A DNA stretch of 32,875 bases, taken from positions 1 to 32,875 of IMG/VR virus record IMGVR_UViG_3300036768_001376. The stretch is one strand, 5' to 3'. The stretch comes from a virus. A program made the position numbers and the translations under genes. Of the stretch, positions 2,509-28,885 are shown piece by piece. How positions within the stretch are numbered: position 1 is the first letter of the stretch; the number at the start of each line of letters is the position of its first letter. The notes beneath the pieces were generated by a model that was not told where the DNA came from, made no database searches, and saw only the letters and a program-made list of their open reading frames with translations.

Positions 2509-2763
2509 ATGAAGCCGCCGGGAAAACTCCCCAAGGGCACGTGCGCCCCCGTGCCGCTCGACTCGGATGTCGAGGAAATGGTCATGCGTCTATCGGCGCA
2601 ACTCGGCTGGCCGCTGGGGCGCACAGTCAATGCACTCTTACGCTGCACCATCGGCGGGGAGTTCGTGATGGAGGTGGAGATGGCGAAGCCCGCCCGGCTC
2701 GGTACCGAGGAAGGGCGCAAGTTAGTTCAATCCGCCCCGGCGAGGGCGAGATTCCGGCTATAG
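2509..2763 (+). CDS. Small protein with ribbon-helix-helix-like segment
   Basis: An 84-residue frame starts at ATG 2509, ten bases after the previous stop. The middle (PLDSDVEEMVMRLSAQLGWP, then GRTVNALLRCTI) has the strand, helix, turn, helix pattern of Arc/MetJ-type DNA-binding proteins, which is my best guess. No strong Shine-Dalgarno is visible. The last three codons (CGG CTA TAG) lie inside the first copy of a 178-bp repeat that starts at 2755. The original C-terminus may therefore have been replaced when the repeat-bearing cassette arrived. Confidence 0.55.
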   Translation: MKPPGKLPKGTCAPVPLDSDVEEMVMRLSAQLGWPLGRTVNALLRCTIGGEFVMEVEMAKPARLGTEEGRKLVQSAPARARFRL

Positions 2764-2932
2764 CAACCCTGCGAAAATCACACAATTTTGCAGTTTGTGT
2801 CGATTTCTTGTAATCTATTATATTAGAACGACTTACAGGCCAAAAAATTTTCAAAAATCCTCACTTTGGACTTGACTTTGACGGTCTATTATATTAGATT
2901 ATACACAGAAGTTGAGAGCAAAAGTCAAACAA
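2755..2932 (+). repeat. 178-bp direct repeat, copy 1 (cassette promoter region)
   Basis: The segment recurs at 3722-3899 without gaps and with about six substitutions (around 97% identity). It starts at CGGCTATAGC and ends at GTCAAACAA, just before the Shine-Dalgarno of the first cassette gene. It is much more AT-rich than the flanking virion genes and has two copies of the 14-mer TCTATTATATTAGA, 71 bases apart. Its left edge supplies the stop codon of the upstream gene. Confidence 0.93.
2814..2906 (+). promoter_or_regulatory. Probable promoter/operator module of cassette 1
   Basis: The 14-mer TCTATTATATTAGA lies at 2814-2827 and 2885-2898. Upstream of the second copy, TTGACT (2872-2877) is followed after 17 bp by TAGATT (2895-2900); TTGACG (2878-2883) with TATACA 16 bp on is an alternative. 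The 14-mer is nearly self-complementary (TCTA...TAGA), as expected for a dimeric repressor site. Transcription would enter the gene at 2957, which has an excellent AAAGGAGG. Which hexamers are used cannot be settled by reading. Confidence 0.5.
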
Positions 2933-2956
2933 AAAAACAAAACAAAGGAGGTTACA

Positions 2957-3142
2957 ATGACACGAGTAACGGAAGAGTGGAAGAATGAAGTCAACGAATA
3001 CAGATCAGATGTCCCGACGGTCACAGAAGAGGAACTTGTAGAATTATTCGTTGACTACGTTTGCATTGACGAGAAGAATCACATCTTCCGTCATGATGCT
3101 GAGCAAAAAGAGTACATTCATCAATTGTTTGCACAACACTAA
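2957..3142 (+). CDS. Acidic 61-residue protein, first gene of cassette 1
   Basis: I choose ATG 2957 because AAAGGAGG precedes it by seven bases; an in-frame ATG at 2912 lies within the promoter repeat and has no such site. The protein is small, acidic and helical (TEEWKNEVNEYRSD, TEEELVELFVDYVC) with one cysteine and no recognised motif. It occupies the same slot behind the promoter repeat as the 86-residue protein at 3924, but the two sequences are not obviously related. The first-gene slot therefore seems variable while the surrounding repeat is conserved. Function unknown. Confidence 0.7.
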   Translation: MTRVTEEWKNEVNEYRSDVPTVTEEELVELFVDYVCIDEKNHIFRHDAEQKEYIHQLFAQH

Positions 3143-3166
3143 CTCAAAACACTAAAGGAGGATGCA

Positions 3167-3360
3167 ATGACACGAGAACAACTGAAAAGCCGGAATGAAA
3201 TAAGAACAAAAAGCCTTTGGCGCATCGTATCCTAGAGATATTGCAACTGCGTTCAGGCCGGCTTTTCGATTACTAAGAACGAAGCGAGATGCTTGAATGT
3301 GTTGAGCGTTTCCTGCACGACATGCTATACAGAAGTCCAGAACACAGCGAAAGAATGTAA
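3167..3360 (+). pseudogene. Decayed copy of the gene at 4240-4476
   Basis: Starting ATGACACGAGAACAACTGAA after a perfect AAAGGAGG, this segment matches the intact gene at 4240-4476 almost base for base but lacks 43 internal bases. The missing part is bounded in the intact gene by two AAATA pentamers, of which one remains here, so the loss looks like a slippage or short-repeat deletion. It shifts the frame. Point changes also alter TCGTAG to TCCTAG and turn a TAC codon into TAA. The ribosome-binding site has survived while the product is lost. Confidence 0.9.
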
Positions 3361-3368
3361 ACTAACCC

Positions 3369-3421
3369 AAGCGCCAAGCTGCCCGCGCACGAGTGGCGGC
3401 AAAATGAGAAAGGGTACTACA
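3369..3421 (+). promoter_or_regulatory. Conserved hairpin leader, copy 1 of 3
   Basis: About 53 bases before the start at 3422 match the leaders at 4186-4239 and 4485-4538. The shared core is AAGCGCCAA, then GCCCGCGCA, then GAGTGGCGGC, then AAAGGGTAC directly before the start. GCTGCC and GGCGGC can pair (with one G-U) around an 11-base loop, placing a hairpin just upstream of the AAAGGG ribosome-binding site. A translational control element is possible. The leader is non-coding between two genes. Confidence 0.6.
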
Positions 3422-3679
3422 ATGACATTCTACAAGTTGATGAATCGAGATGGATGGCAAACGAAGATCGGCTACGATGGGAAGCAAACGCATCTGTATG
3501 CTGTACTGGTTGACAAAGACCAGTACGGCGTGGTCGGCGCCGACGGATATATCTTTGAATCTATTTTCCTATCCAACCGCGGCGATGGTAGCTACATCAT
3601 TCCTGCTACGAGAGTGCCAAGTGCTGTGCGAATAGCGTGGGATGCAGCGGCTGCGTATGAAGAGAGGGCCAGGGAATGA
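3422..3679 (+). CDS. Unknown 85-residue protein of cassette 1
   Basis: ATG 3422 follows AAAGGG at a good distance; an in-frame ATG six codons earlier (MRKGTT) is less well placed. The product alternates charged turns and short hydrophobic strands (THLYAVLVDKDQYGVVGADG) and ends in an alanine/glutamate helix (DAAAAYEERARE), consistent with a small beta sheet plus one helix. It holds the same position as the 75-residue gene at 4539, after the same hairpin leader and overlapping an HTH start codon (ATGA). The two proteins share little sequence, so this looks like another exchangeable slot. No family recognised. Confidence 0.7.
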   Translation: MTFYKLMNRDGWQTKIGYDGKQTHLYAVLVDKDQYGVVGADGYIFESIFLSNRGDGSYIIPATRVPSAVRIAWDAAAAYEERARE

Positions 3680-3780
3680 AAGACGTTTTGAAATCCATCG
3701 GTGCGCAGGCGCAAAGCCCTGCGGCTATAGCAACCCTGCGAAAATCACACAAATTTGCAGTTTGTGTCGATTTCTTCTAA
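3676..3780 (+). pseudogene. Truncated copy of the cassette HTH gene
   Basis: Codons 1-16 (MKDVLKSIGAQAQSP) clearly match the start of the intact HTH protein at 4763 (MKDILKHIGAQVRSL). The frame then runs into the second 178-bp repeat at 3722 and ends at TAA 3778-3780 after 34 codons. The whole helix-turn-helix is missing. The break point coincides with the left edge of the repeat, so this is the junction of the tandem duplication. A 34-residue peptide could still be made, because its ATG overlaps the stop of the previous gene. Confidence 0.85.
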
Positions 3781-3899
3781 TCTATTATATTAGAACGACT
3801 TACAGGGCAAAAAATTTTCAAAAATCCTCACTTTGGACTTGACTTTGGCGGTCTATTATATTAGATTATATGCAGAAGTTGAGAGCAAAAGTCAAACAA
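3722..3899 (+). repeat. 178-bp direct repeat, copy 2
   Basis: This is the second copy of 2755-2932, without indels and with about six substitutions. It interrupts the truncated HTH gene and drives the second cassette. In this copy, ACACAAA and TTTGTGT (around 3748-3768) form a perfect 7-bp inverted repeat. TTCTAAT (3775-3781) and ATTAGAA (3789-3795) form another, which is imperfect in copy 1. Confidence 0.93.
3775..3871 (+). promoter_or_regulatory. Probable promoter/operator module of cassette 2
   Basis: The 14-mer TCTATTATATTAGA occurs at 3781-3794 and 3852-3865, 71 bases apart as in copy 1. The first copy lies within a perfect inverted repeat, TTCTAAT with ATTAGAA. A TTGACT 17 bp before TAGATT is conserved from copy 1. 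The next gene starts at 3924 behind AAAGGAGG. The likely regulator is a dimeric DNA-binding protein, perhaps the HTH product at 4763, but that link is inferred. Confidence 0.5.
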
Positions 3900-3923
3900 T
3901 TCAAACAAAAGGAGGTTACAGTA

Positions 3924-4184
3924 ATGAACGAAGTCATAGTTGCAGTTCAGAATTTCGATGTCAATGACGTAGTTGCTGAAGAACTGCGTCGTGGGAAAAT
4001 CGCAGAAACAGTTAAAGGCAAAACAGCATTTTGTAAAGTGCCAGAGAGTTTTGCAAAAGAGCGCGATTTGACGATTGTGCACACGATTTCAAGAGAGAAA
4101 TATGACACACTTGATGAGTTTGATAAAGACCTCGTATTCACAACAAAAGAAGGTTTGTATTTTACGACTTTTGAATCTTTGTAA
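3924..4184 (+). CDS. Unknown 86-residue protein, first gene of cassette 2
   Basis: ATG 3924 is chosen because AAAGGAGG lies nine bases upstream; the in-frame ATG at 3870 is inside the promoter repeat. The product is strand-rich and charged (MNEVIVAVQNFDVNDVVAEE at the start, then DLVFTTKEGLYFTTFESL at the end). It has no signal peptide or membrane segment and one cysteine. It is not similar to the protein in the matching slot of cassette 1 (2957). Such size and placement suit phage accessory proteins such as inhibitors of host functions, but nothing in the sequence identifies a target. Confidence 0.75.
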   Translation: MNEVIVAVQNFDVNDVVAEELRRGKIAETVKGKTAFCKVPESFAKERDLTIVHTISREKYDTLDEFDKDLVFTTKEGLYFTTFESL

Positions 4185-4185
4185 T

Positions 4186-4239
4186 AAGCGCCAAGCCGCC
4201 CGCGCATGAGAGGCAGCAACAATAAAAAAGGGTACAGCA
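4186..4239 (+). promoter_or_regulatory. Conserved hairpin leader, copy 2 of 3
   Basis: This non-coding segment shares AAGCGCCAAGC, GCCCGCGCA and AAAGGGTAC with the leaders at 3369 and 4485. GCCGCC and GGCAGC can pair with one mismatch around an 11-base loop. It precedes the intact gene at 4240, whereas the decayed homologue at 3167 has a plain AAAGGAGG leader instead, so leader and gene have been shuffled relative to one another. Confidence 0.6.
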
Positions 4240-4476
4240 ATGACACGAGAACAACTGAAAAGCCGGAATGAAATAGCTTCAGCCTTTCGCAAGGCCGAAG
4301 TTGAAACCTTAGCAAATAAGAACAAAAAGCCTTTGGCGCATCGTATCGTAGAGATATTGCAACTGCGTTCAGGCCGGCTTTTCGATTACTACGAACGAAG
4401 CGAGATGCTTGAATGTGTTGAGCGTTTCCTGCACGATATGCTATACAGGAGTCCAGAACACAGCGAAAGAATGTGA
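4240..4476 (+). CDS. Unknown 78-residue helical protein (intact paralogue of 3167-3360)
   Basis: Starting at ATG 4240 after AAAGGG, the product is mostly alpha helical and basic in its first half (MTREQLKSRNEIASAFRKAE, KNKKPLAHRIVEILQLRSGR). A second acidic/aromatic half follows (FDYYERSEMLECVERFLHDM). Two amphipathic helices of this sort suggest a small protein-binding or nucleic-acid-binding bundle; no family is recognised. A 43-bp-deleted copy lies one cassette upstream, so the gene was duplicated and only one copy kept. Confidence 0.75.
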   Translation: MTREQLKSRNEIASAFRKAEVETLANKNKKPLAHRIVEILQLRSGRLFDYYERSEMLECVERFLHDMLYRSPEHSERM

Positions 4477-4484
4477 ACTAACCC

Positions 4485-4538
4485 AAGCGCCAACCCGCCC
4501 GCGCACGAGTGGCGGCAACAATGAGAAAGGGTACAACA
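4485..4538 (+). promoter_or_regulatory. Conserved hairpin leader, copy 3 of 3
   Basis: Same arrangement as the leaders at 3369 and 4186: AAGCGCCAA, CCGCC pairing with GGCGG around CGCGCACGAGT, then AGAAAGGGTAC before the ATG. The loop and the ribosome-binding region are the best conserved parts, and the stem keeps at least five pairs. Confidence 0.6.
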
Positions 4539-4766
4539 ATGACATATAAAGAGTTCCGCTCAGAGGGCAAAGTTTTCGACATTACGAAAACGCACATTCT
4601 GCTTGAAGATATGCACGGAGAGGTGCACCATATTCCACTTCGCAACGTTACAGCATGGGAACGTGGAGAGTTTACTTCCGATGATGATTTTCTCAGCGCT
4701 ATCTGGCAAGACGTTATTACATCGAGCGATTGCGCTGCATATTTGCCGGAATCGGGAAAATCATGA
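4539..4766 (+). CDS. Unknown 75-residue acidic protein preceding the HTH gene
   Basis: ATG 4539 lies at a normal distance from AAAGGG; an in-frame ATG at 4521 (MRKGTT) is the alternative. The first half has alternating strand residues (KVFDITKTHILLEDMHGEVH, then HIPLRNVTAW), like a small SH3-like or barrel fold, and the C-terminal half is acidic and helical (SDDDFLSAIWQD). Its stop overlaps the start of an XRE-type HTH gene (ATGA). A short gene coupled to a downstream HTH gene resembles some toxin-antitoxin or anti-repressor pairs, but no toxin motif is visible. Confidence 0.75.
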   Translation: MTYKEFRSEGKVFDITKTHILLEDMHGEVHHIPLRNVTAWERGEFTSDDDFLSAIWQDVITSSDCAAYLPESGKS

Positions 4767-4972
4767 AAGACATCTTGAAACACATCGGCGCGCAGGTGCG
4801 AAGCCTACGCGGTTGGCGCAGTCAGGAAGAGTTTGCCCGCAAGGTTGGACTGCCAAAGTCCCGGATCAGTCCCATCGAGCAGGGGCAGGCAAACATCACA
4901 CTAAAGACCCTCGCGCAAATCGCCGCCCGCGGCGGCGGCAAGCTGCGCATCGAAATCGAAAAGCCCTCATGA
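4763..4972 (+). CDS. XRE-family helix-turn-helix protein (69 aa)
   Basis: The HTH spans about residues 18-55: SQEEFARKVGLPKSRISPIE is the classical helix 2, turn, recognition helix, followed by NITLKTLAQIAARGG. The tail KLRIEIE is typical of small XRE/HigA-type regulators. It starts at ATG 4763, overlapping the previous stop. Its own stop lies in the loop of a rho-independent terminator, so it is the last gene of the cassette. A likely job is control of the two upstream promoter modules with their repeated near-palindromic 14-mers. A truncated second copy lies at 3676. Confidence 0.85.
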   Translation: MKDILKHIGAQVRSLRGWRSQEEFARKVGLPKSRISPIEQGQANITLKTLAQIAARGGGKLRIEIEKPS

Positions 4973-4986
4973 CGAGGGCTTTTTTG
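4962..4986 (+). terminator. Rho-independent terminator closing the cassette island
   Basis: AGCCCTC (4962-4968) pairs with GAGGGCT (4974-4980) around a five-base loop, followed by TTTTTT. The stop codon of the HTH gene is in the loop. Confidence 0.9.
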
Positions 4987-5114
4987 TTGTTACCAACCCA
5001 ATGCCCAACCTCTGAATTTTTCAAGAAAATTTCTACATGACAAGTAACCGAAACCAGCGTATCTTTTAGATGAGCTGGCGAAACCTCAAAAGGGCAAAGG
5101 GGAAGCCACTAACC

Positions 5115-5155
5115 AAGCCTCGATCCGCGCGCGGGCGAATCGGGGCTTTTGTTTT
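5115..5155 (+). terminator. Second terminator before the portal operon
   Basis: AAGCCTCGAT (5115-5124) pairs with ATCGGGGCTT (5139-5148), with one G-U, around a GC-rich loop that is itself self-complementary (CCGCGCGCGG). TTTTGTTTT follows. The rest of 4987-5170 holds no convincing gene. With the terminator at 4962 it isolates the cassette island from the head genes. Confidence 0.8.
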
Positions 5156-5170
5156 CACGGGAGATTCAAC

Positions 5171-5701
5171 TTGGGCAGACCGAGTACATTCTACGCCGGA
5201 GAACATGCACGCTGGACCGAGACGGCGGACACTATCACCGTCACACCCGGTTCAACGCTGCACTTCCGTCTCATCAATGCGAACGGGAAAGAAGACTTCG
5301 ACGGAACGCTGAATGGTTCCGACTGGGACTTCGACGTTGTTCCGACTCTGACCAGCTATGGCAACTATAGCGCGGTGCTGTACGAGAAAAACAGTTCAGG
5401 CGAAAAGACAACGCTTGAACGCTGGTCCGTCATTTTGTATCCGAATCTCTCGACGGCTACGACGGGCGTTGACGGACGATCACCTGCCCGCATCATGCTG
5501 GATAACATCGAAGCTGCACTCCAAAAAAACGCCGCCATGCCCGAAGCCACACGACAAGCACACGCGCGTTCCTGGGGTTACAAATCGCTGCGTGAGATGA
5601 TGGATGTGCGTGACCGCTTGCGGCGTGAAGTCGAAGCGGAAGAAAACGCACTCAACGGCACGGACACCACCACAGCACGGGTCACGTTCGTAGCACCATG
5701 A
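5171..5701 (+). CDS. Beta-domain protein with gpW-like helical C-terminus
   Basis: The start is TTG 5171, preceded by GGGAG; no ATG fits as well. Residues 1-95 form a beta-rich domain (TVTPGSTLHFRLINANGK). Residues 103-165 are helical and follow the pattern DGRSPARIMLDNIEAALQ, GYKSLREMMDVRDRLRREVE. Proteins with this two-part plan, sitting just before a lambda-type portal, are familiar from phages and prophages, and the helical part resembles the head-completion protein gpW. Its stop overlaps the portal start (ATGA). I infer a structural role at the head-tail connection; the exact function is unproven. Confidence 0.7.
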   Translation: MGRPSTFYAGEHARWTETADTITVTPGSTLHFRLINANGKEDFDGTLNGSDWDFDVVPTLTSYGNYSAVLYEKNSSGEKTTLERWSVILYPNLSTATTGVDGRSPARIMLDNIEAALQKNAAMPEATRQAHARSWGYKSLREMMDVRDRLRREVEAEENALNGTDTTTARVTFVAP

Positions 5702-7431
5702 GTATCATCACCGACATATTGCACCGAGTGGGGCTTGCGACGCAGAGTGAGATTCGACAAATCGAAAAGCAGAGTCTTGAGCAACAAGCGAGCGCTCTGC
5801 GTCTTGCTTTTTCCGTCACGACACGGGCCTATGCTGCTGCACAACATGGGCGCCTCAATGCCAACTGGGTGACCGTAACAGGCAACCCGCTGGCCGATAT
5901 TCGTTCCGGCCTCAAAGTCGTGCGAGATCGTGCACGTGATTTGCAAGCGAACGACCCAACCGGTGCACATATCATTCGCATGTGGCAGAACAATGTGCCG
6001 GGCCCGCGTGGATTTTCATTCAAGTCGAAAGCAAAACTTTCCAACGGCGCAAGCGATGAAGTCGGCAACAAGGCCGTCGAGCGTGCTTACTACGATTGGT
6101 CGAAGCCAAAGCATTGCACAGTTGACGGGAAGATGAGCCGCCGACAGGTTGAACATTTCGTGATGGCGCAGCTTGGGCGTGATGGTGAGTTCCTCGTGCG
6201 GAAAGTCTACAACAACTCAAAGTACGGCTTCCAGCTGCAACCCCTCGACACTGAGCTGCTTGATGAGACATACAACGACCGCAACGGCAATAACCTCGTG
6301 GTCATGGGTGTCGAGATTGATACGTGGGGCAAGCCGGTGGCATACTGGATTCGTGTACCGAACGAGTTCTCGCGCATCTACGGCTACACAACGAGCGGCA
6401 ACCGTGAACGCATTCCGGCGGAAGAAATCTATCACGGCTTCGATGTGCAGTATGCCTGCCAGACGCGCGGCGTGAGTTGGCTTGCACCGATCATGCTGCG
6501 CATGAAAGCATTGACAGACTGGGAGCAATACCAGTGGGCTGCTGCGCAAGTCAACTCGGCGTATGCAATGATCTTCAAAAATCAAAACGGACAAACATCG
6601 CGCCCATTCGACGGCAGGACTGCCGATCCCGAAACCGGGTTTGTCGAGATGGAGTTTTCCGAAGCGATGATTAAAGACATTGGCAACAAGGATGTCGTGA
6701 TTGATCGTGCAAAGTTTCCGAACGAAATGTACGGCGAGTATCTACGCTTGATGGAGCAACGCATCGGCACGGGCGTCGAGATGGACTATCCGCACATATC
6801 CGGCGACCTGTCGCAGACGAACTTCAGTAGTGCGCGCTTCGGCGCTGCCAATACGCAGGAAGCATTCCGGGGCATCCAACTACTTCTCATCGAGCAATTT
6901 TTGGAGCCGATGGCTGAGGATTGGATGAAGATGGCATTCCTCAAGGAACAAATCAAACTGGACAGCGGCGCTGTACTGCCCGTAGAACGTCTCGACAAGT
7001 TTTTGGAAGGCATCACGTTCACCGGTCGCACGTGGGGCTTTATCCAACCGCTGCAGGATATTATGGCTGCAACGGTCGCTATTGAGTATGGATTGCAATC
7101 GCCCATCGAGTGGTTCGAGGAGAGAGGCAAAGACATGTACGAGGTCTACAACGATCTCAAGACGGCAAAAGATTTGCGCGACAAGTTGGGGATTGGAACA
7201 AAGCTCGACGCGCTGGATAAGGCGATGCAGGAACTTCAAACGGCAACGCCAGGAACGAAAGCGGAGAAGATCACGCAGGGCCTGCGCACACTCGCCGATG
7301 TGCTGATCGAAATAGACGATGCGGAAAATAGCAATGATCCAACCCGTATTGATGTGGCAGAAGAAAAACTGCTCAGGCAGGCACGAGAAATTTTGAGACG
7401 AAGCAAAAACGGACATCATCAACCAACGTGA
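5698..7431 (+). CDS. Phage portal protein, lambda GpB family
   Basis: The portal forms the dodecameric ring at one head vertex through which DNA enters and leaves. At 577 residues it has lambda-portal size. The N-terminal signature, LKVVRDRARDLQANDPTGAH, followed by WQNNVPGPRGFSF, is characteristic of the lambda family. The middle has further family segments (EFLVRKVYNN, PLDTELLDETYN, TRGVSWLAPIM, DWEQYQWAAAQVNSAY) and the C-terminus is a charged helix. It is coupled to the preceding gene by ATGA and stands in the conserved terminase-portal-protease-capsid order. Lambda B is cleaved by the head protease; the same may hold here. Confidence 0.95.
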   Translation: MSIITDILHRVGLATQSEIRQIEKQSLEQQASALRLAFSVTTRAYAAAQHGRLNANWVTVTGNPLADIRSGLKVVRDRARDLQANDPTGAHIIRMWQNNVPGPRGFSFKSKAKLSNGASDEVGNKAVERAYYDWSKPKHCTVDGKMSRRQVEHFVMAQLGRDGEFLVRKVYNNSKYGFQLQPLDTELLDETYNDRNGNNLVVMGVEIDTWGKPVAYWIRVPNEFSRIYGYTTSGNRERIPAEEIYHGFDVQYACQTRGVSWLAPIMLRMKALTDWEQYQWAAAQVNSAYAMIFKNQNGQTSRPFDGRTADPETGFVEMEFSEAMIKDIGNKDVVIDRAKFPNEMYGEYLRLMEQRIGTGVEMDYPHISGDLSQTNFSSARFGAANTQEAFRGIQLLLIEQFLEPMAEDWMKMAFLKEQIKLDSGAVLPVERLDKFLEGITFTGRTWGFIQPLQDIMAATVAIEYGLQSPIEWFEERGKDMYEVYNDLKTAKDLRDKLGIGTKLDALDKAMQELQTATPGTKAEKITQGLRTLADVLIEIDDAENSNDPTRIDVAEEKLLRQAREILRRSKNGHHQPT

Positions 7432-7898: not shown

Positions 7899-9944
7899 AT
7901 GATGACAAGTAAAGATATTCAAACCCTGATCGAGCGCTTCGGCGGGCAACGTATTGCGCTGCGAACCGTCGAACGAGCCGATCCGGCGACATGGAATGAC
8001 AAGGACATGTCCGTCGAGGCAATCCTCACGACCGAAAAGCCTGCGGATGTATGGGACTGGGAGCGCTGGGACGTTGTGCCGGAGGTGCTGCGCATGGACG
8101 GCATGATTCTCCCCGAGGGCCGCGACCAGGTCCCGCTGCTCGACACGCACTCACGCTATTCCATTAGCGACCAGTTCGGTAGTGTGCGCATGTTCAGCAA
8201 TGCGGTTGTTTCCGGCTACGCTGCGAAGAAGGCACGCTTCTTCTTCGCCTCGACCCAGGATGCGCAAGACGCTGCCACGAAAGTGAAGGAGGGGCACGTC
8301 ACTGACAACAGCGTCGGCTATGAAGTGTTGGCATCGACGTGGATTGCGCCGGGGGCGAGCATGGAGATTGGCGGCAAGGTCTATAACGGCGGCGAGCGAG
8401 GGTTGCGAGTCACGACGCAGTGGAAGCTGAAAGAGGTGAGCCTCTGTCCCATCGGCGCCGATGAGCTTGCGACTATCCGCGCAGAAGCGAAGCACCACAA
8501 GCGCGATATGATGGACTGCCCTGAATGTGGAATGCAAACACCCGCAGATGGCAACTACTGTGCCTCGTGCGGAAAGGAAATCAAGCGTGCGGCATGGGAT
8601 ACCGCATCGCCTGATCCGACTATCACAATCAAACATCAACAACCAGGAGAACCAACGATGGAACCCACCAAGGAGCAACTCACGGATCAGGAGAAAGCTG
8701 CGGTCCGTGAAGCTGAATACAATCGCATTCGCGAGATCGGCGAGTGGAAGACGCGCTTCGTAGGTCAGATCGAAAACGTTGACCAACTGGCGACGGAAGC
8801 GATCAAAAGCGGCATGAGCGTATCCGAGTTCAAAGGGACGCTGGCCGAGAAGATGGCCGAGAAAGGCAAGGCATTGCAAACGCCGCAGAGCGCACTTGGA
8901 CTCACGGAGAAAGAACAGAAGCGTTACTCGATTCTGCGCGCCATCCGGCATCTGCTCTATCAGCGTGACAAGCAGTTCGCTGACATGAAGGTGGATGCGA
9001 GCTTCGAGATTGAATGCTCGAACGAGATTGCCGCACGCCTCGGCATTGCGCCGAAAGGCATCCTCGTACCCTACGAAATGCAACCGGGCATGACGAACGC
9101 GGCTCGTGCACAACGAGATGCGACGGTTGGTAATGCGAGCAACGCGGGTGCGCTGGTCGGTACGACGCTGATGGCAAGCGAGTTCATCGAGGTCCGCCGC
9201 AATGTGTACCTGGCGGACAAGGTCGGTGTGCGCGTCCTGAGCGGCCTTGTCGGCAACGTCGACTTCCCTAAGCAGACCGCAGAAGGGACGGCAACGTGGG
9301 TAGGTGAGCAGGTTGCAGCGGCTGAGACCAATATCACGGTTGGTAAAGTGAGTCTCACACCGAAGACGGTCTCGGCATTCTACGACTATAGCCGCAAGCT
9401 GCTGCTCCAGTCCACGCCGAGCATTGACCAGTTGATCAATCAGGACCTCGATCAGCGATTGAGGCTTGCCATTGACAAGTCCATCTTCCACGGCACTGGC
9501 GGCGATCAACCGACTGGTATCGAAAATACGTCCGGCGTCGGCAACGTCGTTGGGGCGGGCTTGACATGGCAGAAGGTGATCGAGTTCCGCACGGACGTCG
9601 CTGTGGCAAACTCATTGAGCGGGAGTCTCTCATTCGTCACTGACCCGGTGACGTTCGGAACGCTCATGGGGCGACCGAAGGCAACCGGGTACCCGGTGTA
9701 CCTGATCAATGACAATGGACAGATGATCAGCTATCCGGTGTATGATTCCAATCAAATCACCAGCGGCTATCTCTTCTTCGGCGATGGCTCGCAAGTGCTG
9801 CTTGGCGAGTGGGGCGTGCTCGATATCCTGCCCGATCCGTACACCGCCTCGACCAAGGGCGACATTCGTGTCGTTGGCTTCAAGAGCGTGGACGTCGCAC
9901 TGCGCCATGCGGGTGCATGGTCCTTTGCGAATGACGTGTCATGA
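7899..9944 (+). CDS. Fused prohead protease, zinc ribbon and HK97-fold major capsid protein
   Basis: The 681 residues form three parts. Residues 1-200 match S78-type prohead proteases: histidine H84 in LLDTHSRYS, serine S138 in HVTDNSVGYEV, then VSLCPIGAD. Residues 207-224 are a zinc ribbon (C207, C210, C221, C224). After a charged helical scaffold-like stretch (about 254-340) comes an HK97-fold capsid domain, with typical segments such as ATWVGEQVAAAETNITVGKV, LTPKTVSAFYDYSRKLL and ending DIRVVGFKSVDVALRHAGA. Protease-capsid fusions are known in some phages; the protease would cut the capsid part free. An in-frame ATG at 8658 behind AGGAGA could also yield scaffold plus capsid without protease. 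RBS for the full product: GAGAGGATG before 7899. Confidence 0.92.
   Translation: MMTSKDIQTLIERFGGQRIALRTVERADPATWNDKDMSVEAILTTEKPADVWDWERWDVVPEVLRMDGMILPEGRDQVPLLDTHSRYSISDQFGSVRMFSNAVVSGYAAKKARFFFASTQDAQDAATKVKEGHVTDNSVGYEVLASTWIAPGASMEIGGKVYNGGERGLRVTTQWKLKEVSLCPIGADELATIRAEAKHHKRDMMDCPECGMQTPADGNYCASCGKEIKRAAWDTASPDPTITIKHQQPGEPTMEPTKEQLTDQEKAAVREAEYNRIREIGEWKTRFVGQIENVDQLATEAIKSGMSVSEFKGTLAEKMAEKGKALQTPQSALGLTEKEQKRYSILRAIRHLLYQRDKQFADMKVDASFEIECSNEIAARLGIAPKGILVPYEMQPGMTNAARAQRDATVGNASNAGALVGTTLMASEFIEVRRNVYLADKVGVRVLSGLVGNVDFPKQTAEGTATWVGEQVAAAETNITVGKVSLTPKTVSAFYDYSRKLLLQSTPSIDQLINQDLDQRLRLAIDKSIFHGTGGDQPTGIENTSGVGNVVGAGLTWQKVIEFRTDVAVANSLSGSLSFVTDPVTFGTLMGRPKATGYPVYLINDNGQMISYPVYDSNQITSGYLFFGDGSQVLLGEWGVLDILPDPYTASTKGDIRVVGFKSVDVALRHAGAWSFANDVS
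8645..8660 (+). promoter_or_regulatory. Internal ribosome-binding site and in-frame start in the capsid fusion
   Basis: AGGAGA (8645-8650) lies eight bases before ATG 8658, which is codon 254 of the fused gene and in the same frame. Initiation here would give a 428-residue product starting MEPTKEQLTDQEKAA, exactly at the boundary between the zinc ribbon and the scaffold-like helix. The layout is like lambda C/Nu3, where a nested start supplies scaffold in excess. Confidence 0.7.
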
Positions 9945-23595: not shown

Positions 23596-25815
23596 ATGAA
23601 GCGCACATGGATTTTGTTCTTGTTGATGTTTTCATTCGTGCTCGGCAACGCACAGACGACACAATACTTCGAGGTCGTCTTGCTACGGACCAATGGCACA
23701 CCACTAACGGGCGCCACGGCATGGCTGGTTCCCGTGGCAAACGTCTATCCAAACAACCGTCTTGCGCTGACGGCACATCCTCAGAAGCTGGGAGTGTACT
23801 ACCGCAACGCAGTCCCGGTTGGTCTCTACGACATTTGGGTGGACCAAGCGCACTACAATCCGCCCGGAGCGACGGTTGTGAGCGGTTATGTGAAGAATAG
23901 AGATAGCGTGGCAATCGGTGGAGCCGGGACGGTGGTAACGCACAACTACTATGGCTTCGCTGCGGATGAAGTGACAACGACGCTGAATCATGATTCCACT
24001 ATCAGTGTAAAGGACGGTGGCATCACTTGGGAGAAACTCGCCTCGCCCGTTGCGGACACAACTACACTCAAATCGACCAATGCTGATGTGGCGATACTGA
24101 AGACGGTCGTATCAGGCAAAGAAATCGGCGGCGGTATGTTCGTAAAGATTGATTCAACATATCCTGAGGGTGTTGTTGCGTTCAAACATCCGGTTACAGG
24201 TAAACAGTGGGTTCGGGAAGAATATCTTCAAACCGGAGCAGTCAACGTAAGATGGGCTGGGGCTATAGGTGACGGGCTAAATAATGACTACGTGGCAATA
24301 AAACGAGCATATCGTTCTCTTCAAACAACAGGGCTTATGACAGCAAGCGGAGAGCCAGAACGCTATGGAATTCTTTTTTTTCCCCCGGGGACCTTCATTA
24401 TAGATAGCACGCTTCGCATTTCTGGCGGCGTAACTCTTGTTGGTAGCCCTGGATTTAGAAGAACTATAATCAAGTTCAAGGATGCTATCGCAACCACTCA
24501 GGAAATTTTTATTGTTGATACTGACATGCGCCTCATCAATGGCGAACCATTTGCCAATGCTACATTTGGTATTTCAATTCGGGATATGAGTTTCATTGGT
24601 AATAGTCTAACTAATCCAATGATAAGTGGGGTTAGATTGCTGAGCGCACAATTAACCAGCTTAGATAGAGTTAACATAGCGGAAATGGGTTTGCGCGGAC
24701 TGGTTGTAGGTGATAGCTTGCAGTCTTATGCGTCATCAATCACTATTACTTCTCTATGGATAGCTGATTGCATCAAGGGTCCAGGACTCGAAATAATCGA
24801 AGCAAGTTCATTTGTAGCTTTGAACCTTTCCGTCGAGCATGTGAATATGAATGGTTCTTATCTGGGGGCTGATGGAGACAAAAATCCAGCAATGCTCATT
24901 AGAAATTCCTCTAATATCCACATCAGTCATTTCCAAGATGAAAATTCTTATTTACCAATCAAAATCAAAAATTCACAAAATGTTTTCTTTACTGCCATTT
25001 CTCAACATTGGTGGTACTCTACACCTATCCCTGTTGCAATCAAAATAGTAAATTCATCTCAGGTTTCAATTGAAAGAATGCACATGATGAATGCCGATAC
25101 GTTATTGTCACACCCAGATAAATCAATCTTCTTGTTGGGCGGAGTGGGGATTTTTTTTGAAACTTATCCACTAATAGCGCAAGGGAATGTTGGCATAGGA
25201 ATGGTAAGAGCAACAAAAACCTTGCAAGTGGCTGGGACTGCTGGCATAACTGGCAATTTGTACTTGGGCCCTGGACTTAATGCTTACATCGGCCAAGGCG
25301 CCGATCCAACCAATTCTATCGCCATTTACTCTTTCCGACCAGATGGTATTAGTGGCGCTCAAAAATGGGAACTCTCATTGGGTGGTGCTGGGTCTGCCCT
25401 TAATCCATCAACAACCATTTCTTCGTCGAATACAGATAATACAAATTCCTATACTTACATAAAATTGGGTCGTGCTATGGGCGGGCCTTACACCGGGTAC
25501 AATATTCTATTAGACCCTGATGGCACGACTGGAGTCTTCGTCGGCAATAACCTAAAAGTGCAGGGCAATGTCTATTTGAATTCTGATCTAGTTGGCAATG
25601 ATCTTATCGCTGGGACTTCTTTTTTTTCAGGAACCGATACATTGAAGGTGATCACCATTTCTGGCGGGACGCTGAATGATATTTACACTGCTAATTCAAT
25701 TGGCAATGCTGTAGAAGCTTTGAGTTGCACAGCTATCACAAATGGCGTTGAAGTCCGACGCCGATCAGGTGGTGTCAGTGGACTAAGTTTCACATATCAG
25801 AGAATCAAGAGATAA
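23596..25815 (+). CDS. Tailspike/tail fibre with beta-helix, carrying a signal peptide (739 aa)
   Basis: Residues 1-19 (MKRTWILFLLMFSFVLGNA) are a clear Sec signal peptide, unusual for a virion protein. Residues 20-105 form a beta domain. Near residue 215 NVRWAGAIGDGLNNDYVAIK is the entry motif of pectate-lyase-type right-handed beta-helices used as polysaccharide-binding or -cleaving tailspikes. Short repeating rungs follow to about 510 (SNIHISHFQDENSYLPIKIK, NSQNVFFTAIS). From about 531, GNVGIGMVRATKTLQVAG begins a terminal domain of the kind found in FCB-group fibres. From about 24240 on the base composition falls sharply (30% G+C at 24901-24960). It probably determines host range. Confidence 0.8.
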   Translation: MKRTWILFLLMFSFVLGNAQTTQYFEVVLLRTNGTPLTGATAWLVPVANVYPNNRLALTAHPQKLGVYYRNAVPVGLYDIWVDQAHYNPPGATVVSGYVKNRDSVAIGGAGTVVTHNYYGFAADEVTTTLNHDSTISVKDGGITWEKLASPVADTTTLKSTNADVAILKTVVSGKEIGGGMFVKIDSTYPEGVVAFKHPVTGKQWVREEYLQTGAVNVRWAGAIGDGLNNDYVAIKRAYRSLQTTGLMTASGEPERYGILFFPPGTFIIDSTLRISGGVTLVGSPGFRRTIIKFKDAIATTQEIFIVDTDMRLINGEPFANATFGISIRDMSFIGNSLTNPMISGVRLLSAQLTSLDRVNIAEMGLRGLVVGDSLQSYASSITITSLWIADCIKGPGLEIIEASSFVALNLSVEHVNMNGSYLGADGDKNPAMLIRNSSNIHISHFQDENSYLPIKIKNSQNVFFTAISQHWWYSTPIPVAIKIVNSSQVSIERMHMMNADTLLSHPDKSIFLLGGVGIFFETYPLIAQGNVGIGMVRATKTLQVAGTAGITGNLYLGPGLNAYIGQGADPTNSIAIYSFRPDGISGAQKWELSLGGAGSALNPSTTISSSNTDNTNSYTYIKLGRAMGGPYTGYNILLDPDGTTGVFVGNNLKVQGNVYLNSDLVGNDLIAGTSFFSGTDTLKVITISGGTLNDIYTANSIGNAVEALSCTAITNGVEVRRRSGGVSGLSFTYQRIKR

Positions 25816-26747: not shown

Positions 26748-26748
26748 G

Positions 26749-26822
26749 TCGGGGCGGAGGGATTTGAACCCTCGACCTCACGGTCCCGAACCGTGCGCGC
26801 TACCGGACTGCGCTACGCCCCG
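26749..26822 (-). tRNA. tRNA-Pro, anticodon CGG
   Basis: On the minus strand a full cloverleaf forms: acceptor CGGGGCG/CGCCCCG, D stem GCGC/GCGC, anticodon stem CACGG/CCGTG with loop TTCGGGA (anticodon CGG), variable loop AGGTC, T stem GAGGG/CCCTC with TTCAAAT, and discriminator A at 26749. The C1-G72 pair and A73 are the identity marks of bacterial proline tRNAs. CCA is not encoded. The 5' side faces the integrase, 195 bases away, so the gene lies inside the phage, probably as part of attP. Confidence 0.95.
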
Positions 26823-27016: not shown

Positions 27017-28057
27017 TCATGCGGCGCTTTTGGGCGGCTTGGGCAGACGAAGTTTCTTTGCGGCCTTACGTACCTCAGCTTTGAAAGGATTCACATAGCG
27101 CTTGGTGCTTTCAGCGTCATGATGGCCGAGGAACTCTTTGATCGTCCAGAGATCCGCGCCTTGCTGTGCAAGTGCGGTGGCCGCCGTGTGTCGGGCGCCG
27201 TGCAGCTTGATGGTCGCCGGGAGTTTTAATCGCTCACGCAGACGGGCGAAGCGACGCGTAAGAGCATCAGGCGATCTATTGATCAACATATCATCGCCTC
27301 GTTGTTGCGCTCTGGCGATGAGTCGTTGGATGATTGGCCGAAGTTGCGGAGTTATGTAGACGATTTTATCACCGCCTTCCTTTTCATCATGCACGGTGAT
27401 CTCGCCGCGCTGCACGTCAACATGCTCACTGATGCGAATCGCTGTTCCCTCACCACGGCGTACGCCCGACAAAAAGTAGAAGTTGAGTATGTCCAAAAAT
27501 TCCTGGTCGCCAATACCCTGAATCAGTCGTAGGTATTCCTGGGGCTTGATGTCACGAGGTTTGCGCTTCTCACGCTTGGGTAATTCGTAGTGCTGCAGTG
27601 GGTTTGAGACGGCATAGCGTTTTGCAACTGCCCATGCGAAAAGTGACTTGAGTGCGGAGAGTTCATTTCGGATTGTTTTTGGCGCACGACCTGCCTCGCG
27701 ACGTTCACGCTCGAAGTTTTCAACATGCGCAGTTGTGATGTCTTCAACGAACTCATCACGCCCCAGAGATTTCCCAAAATTGTTGAAGGCATGCACGAGC
27801 GCTATAATGGTATCGCTTTTGCGTCCCTTTGTTTTTTTGAAATCCAAATACTGAGACACCAACAAGCTGTAAGTGATGCGCTGCATGACACGATTCGACA
27901 AACCGAATTGCGCCAGCGTCAGGTCGTTGTTTTCTTTCGCGAGAATCGCTTCTGCAACACGACGGTCCTTTGTGCGGAGAGATCGGCGAGGTAGGCCGAG
28001 GGCCTTGCGGTACTTGATGTACCATGTACCATTCCGATTGATGAGCCAGCAATTCAT
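27017..28057 (-). CDS. int: Tyrosine recombinase (phage integrase)
   Basis: This enzyme joins attP to attB through a 3'-phosphotyrosyl intermediate and with helper proteins reverses the reaction. The 346 residues show an N-terminal arm-binding part, a SAM-like core-binding domain (about 60-150) and the catalytic domain: R200 in LSGVRRGEG, a lysine around 225-231, H286-x-x-R289 in LHGARH, H312 in LGHHDAE and Y321 in KRYVNP. All expected residues are present. It is transcribed leftwards towards the tRNA-Pro and the 20-bp repeats. Upstream, on the same strand, a small membrane zinc-ribbon gene ends 18 bases before its start, so the two may be co-transcribed. Confidence 0.95.
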   Translation of the reverse strand: MNCWLINRNGTWYIKYRKALGLPRRSLRTKDRRVAEAILAKENNDLTLAQFGLSNRVMQRITYSLLVSQYLDFKKTKGRKSDTIIALVHAFNNFGKSLGRDEFVEDITTAHVENFERERREAGRAPKTIRNELSALKSLFAWAVAKRYAVSNPLQHYELPKREKRKPRDIKPQEYLRLIQGIGDQEFLDILNFYFLSGVRRGEGTAIRISEHVDVQRGEITVHDEKEGGDKIVYITPQLRPIIQRLIARAQQRGDDMLINRSPDALTRRFARLRERLKLPATIKLHGARHTAATALAQQGADLWTIKEFLGHHDAESTKRYVNPFKAEVRKAAKKLRLPKPPKSAA

Positions 28058-28406: not shown

Positions 28407-28796
28407 TCACTTTTTCTTCGGATTGTGAAGTTTCGTCTTCAGCTCTTCTTTTACTCGCTCGTATTCCTCAGACATCTCAATATACTTCAGAATATCATGA
28501 ACAAGTGCCGGATACCTGACTAACTTCGAAGCCAATCGAATGATTTCCGTCGGTATTTTCTGAAGTTCCCCTTCCTGCTTAATCCTTAGCGGTCCATGCC
28601 CCAGGATCAGAGCAAAAGGATTGTACCCTAAATCTGCAACCATACGCTGCAATAATTCGTAGCTGGGCTTCCCGCCATTCAGCAAAGCATTGACTGACGG
28701 TTGCGTAATCCCCAAATAATTAGCGAGTCTGGCTTGCGTCTCTAAGCCTTCCTCTTGCATGATGGCACGGAGCACATCAGGGAAAAAATTCTTCAC
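28407..28796 (-). CDS. CI-like phage repressor (129 aa)
   Basis: It starts at GTG (28796) and the N-terminal 60 residues form an HTH of the XRE type (FPDVLRAIMQEEGLETQARL, then ANYLGITQPSVNALLNGG, PSYELLQRMVADLGYNPFAL). Residues 75-129 are helical and charged (EIIRLASKLVRYPALVHDIL, EEYERVKEELKTKLHNPKKK) and probably give dimers. There is no LexA/CI-type autoprotease domain, so induction should not depend on RecA-stimulated self-cleavage. Two inverted repeats lie directly upstream, suggesting autoregulation. The gene faces away from the early operon, as immunity repressors do. Confidence 0.88.
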   Translation of the reverse strand: MKNFFPDVLRAIMQEEGLETQARLANYLGITQPSVNALLNGGKPSYELLQRMVADLGYNPFALILGHGPLRIKQEGELQKIPTEIIRLASKLVRYPALVHDILKYIEMSEEYERVKEELKTKLHNPKKK

Positions 28797-28800
28797 AGAA

Positions 28801-28836
28801 AATAGCTTTAGCTATTGACAAATAGACTTGCCTATA
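28801..28836. promoter_or_regulatory. Two probable repressor operators
   Basis: AATAGCT-TT-AGCTATT (28801-28816) is a perfect inverted repeat overlapping the -35 of the early promoter. AATAG-acttgc-CTATA (28821-28836) repeats the AATAG/CTAT half-sites between -35 and -10. Binding at the second site would block both promoters, at the first chiefly the early one. Confidence 0.75.
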
Positions 28837-28843
28837 TTATATT
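28815..28843 (+). promoter_or_regulatory. Early rightward promoter (PR-like)
   Basis: TTGACA (28815-28820, perfect consensus), 17 bp, TATATT (28838-28843). It would start transcription near 28850 and read the early operon from 28886. Both operator repeats overlap it. Confidence 0.88.
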
Positions 28844-28864
28844 TGGGGTAGCAAACAACAACAA
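28836..28864 (-). promoter_or_regulatory. Repressor promoter (PRM-like)
   Basis: On the minus strand TTGTTG (28859-28864), 17 bp, TATAAT (28836-28841, perfect -10). Its -10 overlaps the -10 of the rightward promoter, so the two cannot be used at once. The repressor leader would be about 30 bases and include both operators. Confidence 0.6.
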
Positions 28865-28885
28865 TCTAAAGTGAGACGCAACAAA

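Follow-up and report, generated by a model that had tools for sequence, protein, structure and literature searches.

Accessory genes of phages, known as morons, are marked by their own promoters, a terminator, low guanine-plus-cytosine (GC) content and insertion into the late region (PMC4378225), and they are diverse in function (PMC7067206). Little is understood about the ways in which phages acquire and exchange morons and anti-defence cassettes, and a study of such accessory genes calls the acquisition mechanism mysterious (PMC4378225). A more specific layout is that of the operons of anti-CRISPR (acr) and anti-CRISPR-associated (aca) genes, in which the core promoter contains one or two inverted repeats and a small helix-turn-helix (HTH) protein acts as repressor (PMC9410906; PMC9410881). 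Related arrangements are the start-associated sequences (SAS) and extended SAS (ESAS) of Cluster K mycobacteriophages, where a short repeated block with inverted repeats stands directly before the start codons of several small genes (PMC3203893; PMC11373665), and the archaeal viruses, as in SIRV2 and Aca8, where one conserved promoter/operator sequence precedes several different small anti-defence genes and an HTH regulator belongs to the set (PMC11065993). Here, we describe an island of small genes between the terminase and head-tail joining genes of a temperate tailed phage, IMG/VR virus record IMGVR_UViG_3300036768_001376, the whole of which (32,875 bp) is the window. Judged from its sequence, we consider it somewhat probable that this is an accessory (moron) island of acr-aca-like layout, in which two alleles of one cassette stand in tandem. 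The island and its borders contain the following features (aa, amino acids).

2509-2763, plus strand: gene u, the upstream open reading frame (84 aa, without a family); the 178-bp repeat begins with the final 9 bp of this gene, CGGCTATAG
2755-2932, plus strand: promoter block of cassette 1, 97% identical to 3722-3899
2795-2824, plus strand: promoter-like site P1, TTGTGT-N18-TATATT, with the dyad TCTATTATATTAGA at 2814-2827 over the -10 box
2866-2895, plus strand: promoter-like site P2, TTGGAC-N18-TATATT (or TTGACT-N17-TAGATT), with the dyad at 2885-2898 over the -10 box
2957-3142, plus strand: slot gene A1 (61 aa, orphan), with a strong Shine-Dalgarno sequence, AAAGGAGG
3167-3364, plus strand: helical gene H1, a pseudogene
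3369-3421, plus strand: hairpin leader before B1
3422-3679, plus strand: slot gene B1 (85 aa, orphan)
3676-3721, plus strand: HTH1 stub, about 14 codons like the intact HTH gene, then an illegitimate joint
3722-3899, plus strand: promoter block of cassette 2, with P1' at 3762-3791, P2' at 3833-3862 and dyads at 3781-3794 and 3852-3865
3924-4184, plus strand: slot gene A2 (86 aa, orphan)
4186-4239, plus strand: hairpin leader before H2
4240-4476, plus strand: helical gene H2, intact (78 aa, orphan)
4485-4538, plus strand: hairpin leader before B2
4539-4766, plus strand: slot gene B2 (75 aa, orphan), whose stop overlaps the HTH start (ATGA)
4763-4972, plus strand: HTH gene (69 aa, XRE/Cro-CI family; Pfam HTH_3, E-value 1e-8), proposed autoregulator
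4958-4984, plus strand: strong intrinsic terminator after the HTH gene, an 11-bp stem followed by a T run
5115-5148, plus strand: another terminator-like hairpin, preceded by a weak promoter-like site (5037-5065)

Three blocks form the framework that is common to both cassettes. The 178-bp direct repeat differs at only 6 positions between its copies, and the block of H gene and leader (3198-3402 and 4314-4518) at 7 of 205, which again corresponds to 97% identity. The starts of the HTH genes (3676-3718 and 4763-4805) match at 36 of 43 nucleotides (7 mismatches, 84%), and the hairpin leader sequence is present three times, beginning at 3369, 4186 and 4485. In contrast to this framework, the genes in the two slots are entirely different: no similarity was detected between A1 and A2 (shuffle P = 0.31) or between B1 and B2 (shuffle P = 0.69). 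Both the shared promoter block and the conservation of the framework around differing slots, as reported by the first-pass annotation, were thus borne out. Its description of two cassettes of the same build is right for the layout, but the copies are not equivalent, because cassette 2 (3722-4984) is complete with promoters, A2, H2, B2, HTH gene and terminator, while the helical gene and the HTH gene of cassette 1 are broken.

The decay of cassette 1 can be followed in detail. Compared with H2, H1 lacks 43 bp that are flanked by two AAATA direct repeats, and is thereby thrown out of frame at about codon 12; further on, it also carries a TAC to TAA nonsense change. The HTH1 stub runs at the joint into CGGCTATAG, the end of gene u, and from there into the second promoter block, so that it is fused to the tail of the upstream gene; the frames of A1 and B1 remain open. 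On the codon usage of the phage structural genes, the own frame scored best for A1, B1, A2, B2, H2 and the HTH gene (z 2.6 to 4.7 versus shuffles), and Shine-Dalgarno-like sequences precede all of these except the HTH gene, the start of which instead overlaps the B2 stop. Since A1 and B1 are open and coding-like despite the loss of their H and HTH partners, they look retained, which would agree with H and HTH acting in trans from cassette 2. The two lesions in H1 and the truncation of HTH1 would also be consistent with a tandem duplication without present function, the slots of which have diverged or been overwritten and which is on its way out. This is quite improbable, however, because a duplication that diverges slowly does not produce unrelated genes between blocks that are 97% identical, because all four slot genes are still open, resemble phage genes in codon usage and have Shine-Dalgarno sites, and because cassette 2 is intact.

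The joint itself looks as if two alleles of a single locus had undergone unequal crossing-over, to judge from the sequences on both sides. Only about 3 bp (CGG) are common to the HTH-like sequence and the tail of gene u. The second promoter block starts within the last bases of gene u, so that cassette 2 would have occupied the same position in its donor, directly behind u. Furthermore, the HTH starts are only 84% identical compared to 97% for the promoter and H blocks, and both slots are wholly different, which suggests that the cassettes were already mosaic alleles before they were joined. Two alleles of one locus are also what a chimeric assembly of two strains would give, and the IMG/VR record comes without reads against which the contig could be checked. 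Nevertheless, such an artefact is very unlikely, because the 3 bp shared at the joint are too few for an overlap assembler, and a misjoin mediated by repeats would fall inside the 178- or 205-bp repeats.

Each 178-bp block contains two sigma70-like promoter-like sites, 71 bp apart, with the same 14-bp dyad, TCTATTATATTAGA, over each -10 box. The 10 promoter-like sites exceed the number in shuffles (3.0 +/- 1.6), and the dyad occurs at four sites in the window, all of them in the island and each over the -10 of one of the four promoter-like sites, as compared to 0.04 sites expected within two mismatches. An exact 14-bp repeat was found in none of 2000 shuffles of the block, and two such dyads in 3.9% of the shuffles. 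The pattern TTGN3-N16-18-TATATT is present five times on both strands of the window, namely at the four island sites and at 28815, where it adjoins a leftward open reading frame (28407-28796) and looks like an early promoter. The dyad is absent at 28815, which points to an island-specific regulator. The claim of the first-pass annotation that the island has its own promoters and two terminators thus agrees with these promoter-like sites and with the strong terminator at 4958-4984; a second terminator-like hairpin, at 5115-5148, lies just outside the range given there. That hairpin, a strong one, follows the weak promoter-like site by approximately 50 bp, and the segment 5037-5152 may specify a short RNA, the 3' part of which partly complements the three leaders. 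Antisense pairing of this possible RNA (5072-5152) with the leaders was considered, but with z -1.7 to -3.0 versus mononucleotide shuffles it is too weak to be claimed.

Taken together, each cassette would once have consisted of twin sigma70-like promoters with a repeated dyad operator, a variable gene A, the conserved gene H, a variable gene B, a small XRE-type HTH gene and a terminator. The promoters would fire independently of the phage late programme, leading to the production of the small proteins. The HTH protein would then bind to the TCTAWTATAWTAGA dyads that cover the two -10 boxes and switch the operon off, in the manner of Aca repressors in acr-aca operons. The HTH product probably represses the promoter, and the self-regulation proposed by the first-pass annotation is plausible. 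The tandem could have arisen by unequal recombination of two genomes that carried different alleles at this site, so that the HTH gene from one genome passes, at about codon 14, into the end of gene u from the other. Cassette 2, with its HTH and H intact, may then serve both promoters in trans, which would allow H1 and HTH1 to decay while A1 and B1 stay open.

In comparison to acr-aca operons such as acrF1-aca1 of Pseudomonas phage JBD30, the island is alike in its small variable genes, behind which a small HTH gene overlaps the preceding gene and closes the operon at its 3' end, and in having its own promoter with inverted repeats over the core. Its insertion among head and tail genes is likewise shared, as acrF1-aca1 of JBD30 lies within the head genes. 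The island differs by the conserved third gene H, the hairpin leaders within the operon, the twin promoters and the tandem alleles. Several findings weigh against our interpretation. The HTH protein has no detectable similarity to Aca1, the Aca family with which it was directly compared, there is no Aca among its PDB hits up to an E-value of 10, and it scores far below the curated cut-offs of the NCBIfam models. The slot proteins match nothing in Pfam, PHROGs, NCBIfam, PADLOC, phages or plasmids, and no known or demonstrated anti-CRISPR is among them. The dyad is symmetric at 12 of 14 positions and overlaps the AT-rich -10 box, so that part of its symmetry could come from the promoter sequence. 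Finally, no further island alleles were found in the collections scanned, and a wider exchange pool would have to be extrapolated from two copies. Because no known acr is present and the HTH protein does not align with Aca1, we do not claim membership in the acr-aca operons.

The nearest named relatives of the HTH protein are the HipB and HigA antitoxins and the control proteins of restriction-modification systems (C proteins, such as C.BclI), but the likeness is distant; among phages and plasmids, only distant XRE regulators were matched. With HipB, HigA and C.BclI it shares the broad fold and size class, yet no toxin, kinase or restriction enzyme family is found alongside. These relatives, the overlap of the B2 stop with the HTH start and the fact that antitoxins bind promoter dyads would fit a toxin-antitoxin module of the HigBA or HipBA-like kind, in which B is the toxin and the HTH protein its autoregulating XRE antitoxin. 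We regard this as unlikely: B1 and B2 are related neither to each other nor to any toxin family, so that no recognisable toxin gene lies beside the putative antitoxin, a module of two genes leaves no room for H between the slots, and the frame of B1 is open in spite of the loss of its own HTH gene, so that a toxin would go unneutralised. B1 and HTH as a live toxin-antitoxin pair were accordingly rejected.

Compared with the morons of lambdoid and Mu-like phages, the island is alike, at the level of sequence, in being an extra transcription unit with its own promoter, terminator and deviant composition, set between genes that are neighbours in comparable phages. Morons are usually a single gene, in contrast to the two multigene cassettes with a shared framework found here. 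Own promoters, a terminator, low GC content and late-region insertion would be equally expected if the slot genes altered the host or excluded other phages, with the HTH protein limiting their expression and without any role in anti-defence. Given the functional diversity of morons, such lysogenic conversion or superinfection exclusion deserves consideration, and nothing specific speaks against it; the layout of variable genes with a terminal HTH gene is merely better known from acr-aca operons, and we rate this possibility as rather doubtful. An anti-defence role for A and B, drawn from that analogy, is our leading guess but a tentative one. The first-pass annotation had likewise proposed small accessory genes for anti-defence or host takeover, of which the accessory character agrees with the features of the locus, while the functions have no counterpart among the families searched. 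AlphaFold models of B2 (predicted local distance difference test, pLDDT, 62) and A2 (pLDDT 55) were not of sufficient quality to search for similar folds.

The island resembles SAS/ESAS in its repeated leader with inverted repeats before starts, but the sequence is unrelated: the repeated leader differs from the 13-bp SAS, GGGATAGGAGCCC, that stands at start codons. In addition, the leader in the island is intercistronic and has no promoter, while ESAS carry SigA-like promoters. The SIRV2/Aca8 arrangement has archaeal promoters and one gene per motif, as opposed to one bacterial promoter block per operon. Searches of IMG/VR for relatives of H2 and the HTH protein, and for DNA patterns made from the pair of dyad boxes and from the hairpin leader, gave no match, and Rfam returned chance-level matches only. 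An identity of the leaders as integron-like attC sites was rejected, because no integron integrase was seen, the hairpins are short and imperfect, and the leaders sit as ribosome-binding leaders.

The genes that surround the island, together with the integrase, are listed below.

314-2329: GpA terminase
2326-2499: open reading frame after the terminase (57 aa), with CxxC pairs and weak TFIIS zinc-ribbon similarity (E-value 0.002, below the Pfam cut-off)
5171-5701: head-tail joining gene (PHROG 5774)
5698-7431: lambda-type portal
7899-9944: protease-capsid fusion
27017-28057, minus strand: integrase

The terminase and portal have homologues at approximately 30% identity. In VP882, M29 and Bas97, distant relatives at this level of identity, terminase, head-tail gene and portal lie end to end without an insert; the island is thus an insertion relative to comparable phages. 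Its GC content is also unlike that of its neighbours, with 0.44-0.45 over 3001-4500 versus 0.51-0.59 in the flanks, and about 44-50% island-wide versus 52-59% around it. In the terminase-portal gap, Vibrio phi 2 has three small leftward genes, and an Nmad5 gene accompanies small genes in ZRG1. As these phages carry different small genes at the same gap, it is a recurrent accessory-gene site. Neither the window nor the island has similar DNA among GenBank phages, and no relatives of the terminase were found in IMG/VR or in bacterial and archaeal genomes. Scans with the portal yielded one close relative, L009 (79% identity), the contig of which starts 2 bp before the head-tail gene, the downstream border of the island, so that the island falls outside this contig. 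Such a start (L009 1-3) might follow from an assembly that breaks at a variable or repeated island.

The architecture is real and ordinary in kind; what is unusual is that two alleles stand side by side with a readable joint, which allows constant and swapped units to be read directly. The exchange platform proposed by the first-pass annotation is upheld as far as insertion, conserved framework and differing slots are concerned, but it is based on two alleles in one contig, with no third allele in the collections scanned. A stronger version, which we consider improbable, would be a modular anti-defence platform, in which the twin dyad promoter, the start-associated hairpin leaders, H and HTH form a fixed framework and A and B are swapped between phages by recombination at the conserved blocks; the stacked alleles would then give one phage two payloads that answer to a single trans-acting regulator, and the regulator that had become redundant would be lost later. 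The four orphan small proteins are concrete candidates for anti-defence tests, and the dyad motif can be used as bait for sister cassettes.

Further observations concern the remainder of the phage. The host was not identified by integrase and tRNA searches. A complete tRNA-Pro(CGG) gene (26748-26822, minus strand) lies within the phage sequence, adjoining the integrase gene and with phage genes on both sides. The region 28407-28880, with a leftward repressor-like open reading frame and a rightward-facing consensus promoter (TTGACA-N17-TATATT), is the probable immunity or early control region. The protease-capsid fusion contains a zinc-ribbon-like motif (CPECGMQTPADG-YC--CGKEI) that is kept in L009 (2866-4923). 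Within the gene for a pectate-lyase-like tail protein, the GC content falls locally to 38% (24501-25000), which suggests the recent acquisition of part of the receptor-binding region.

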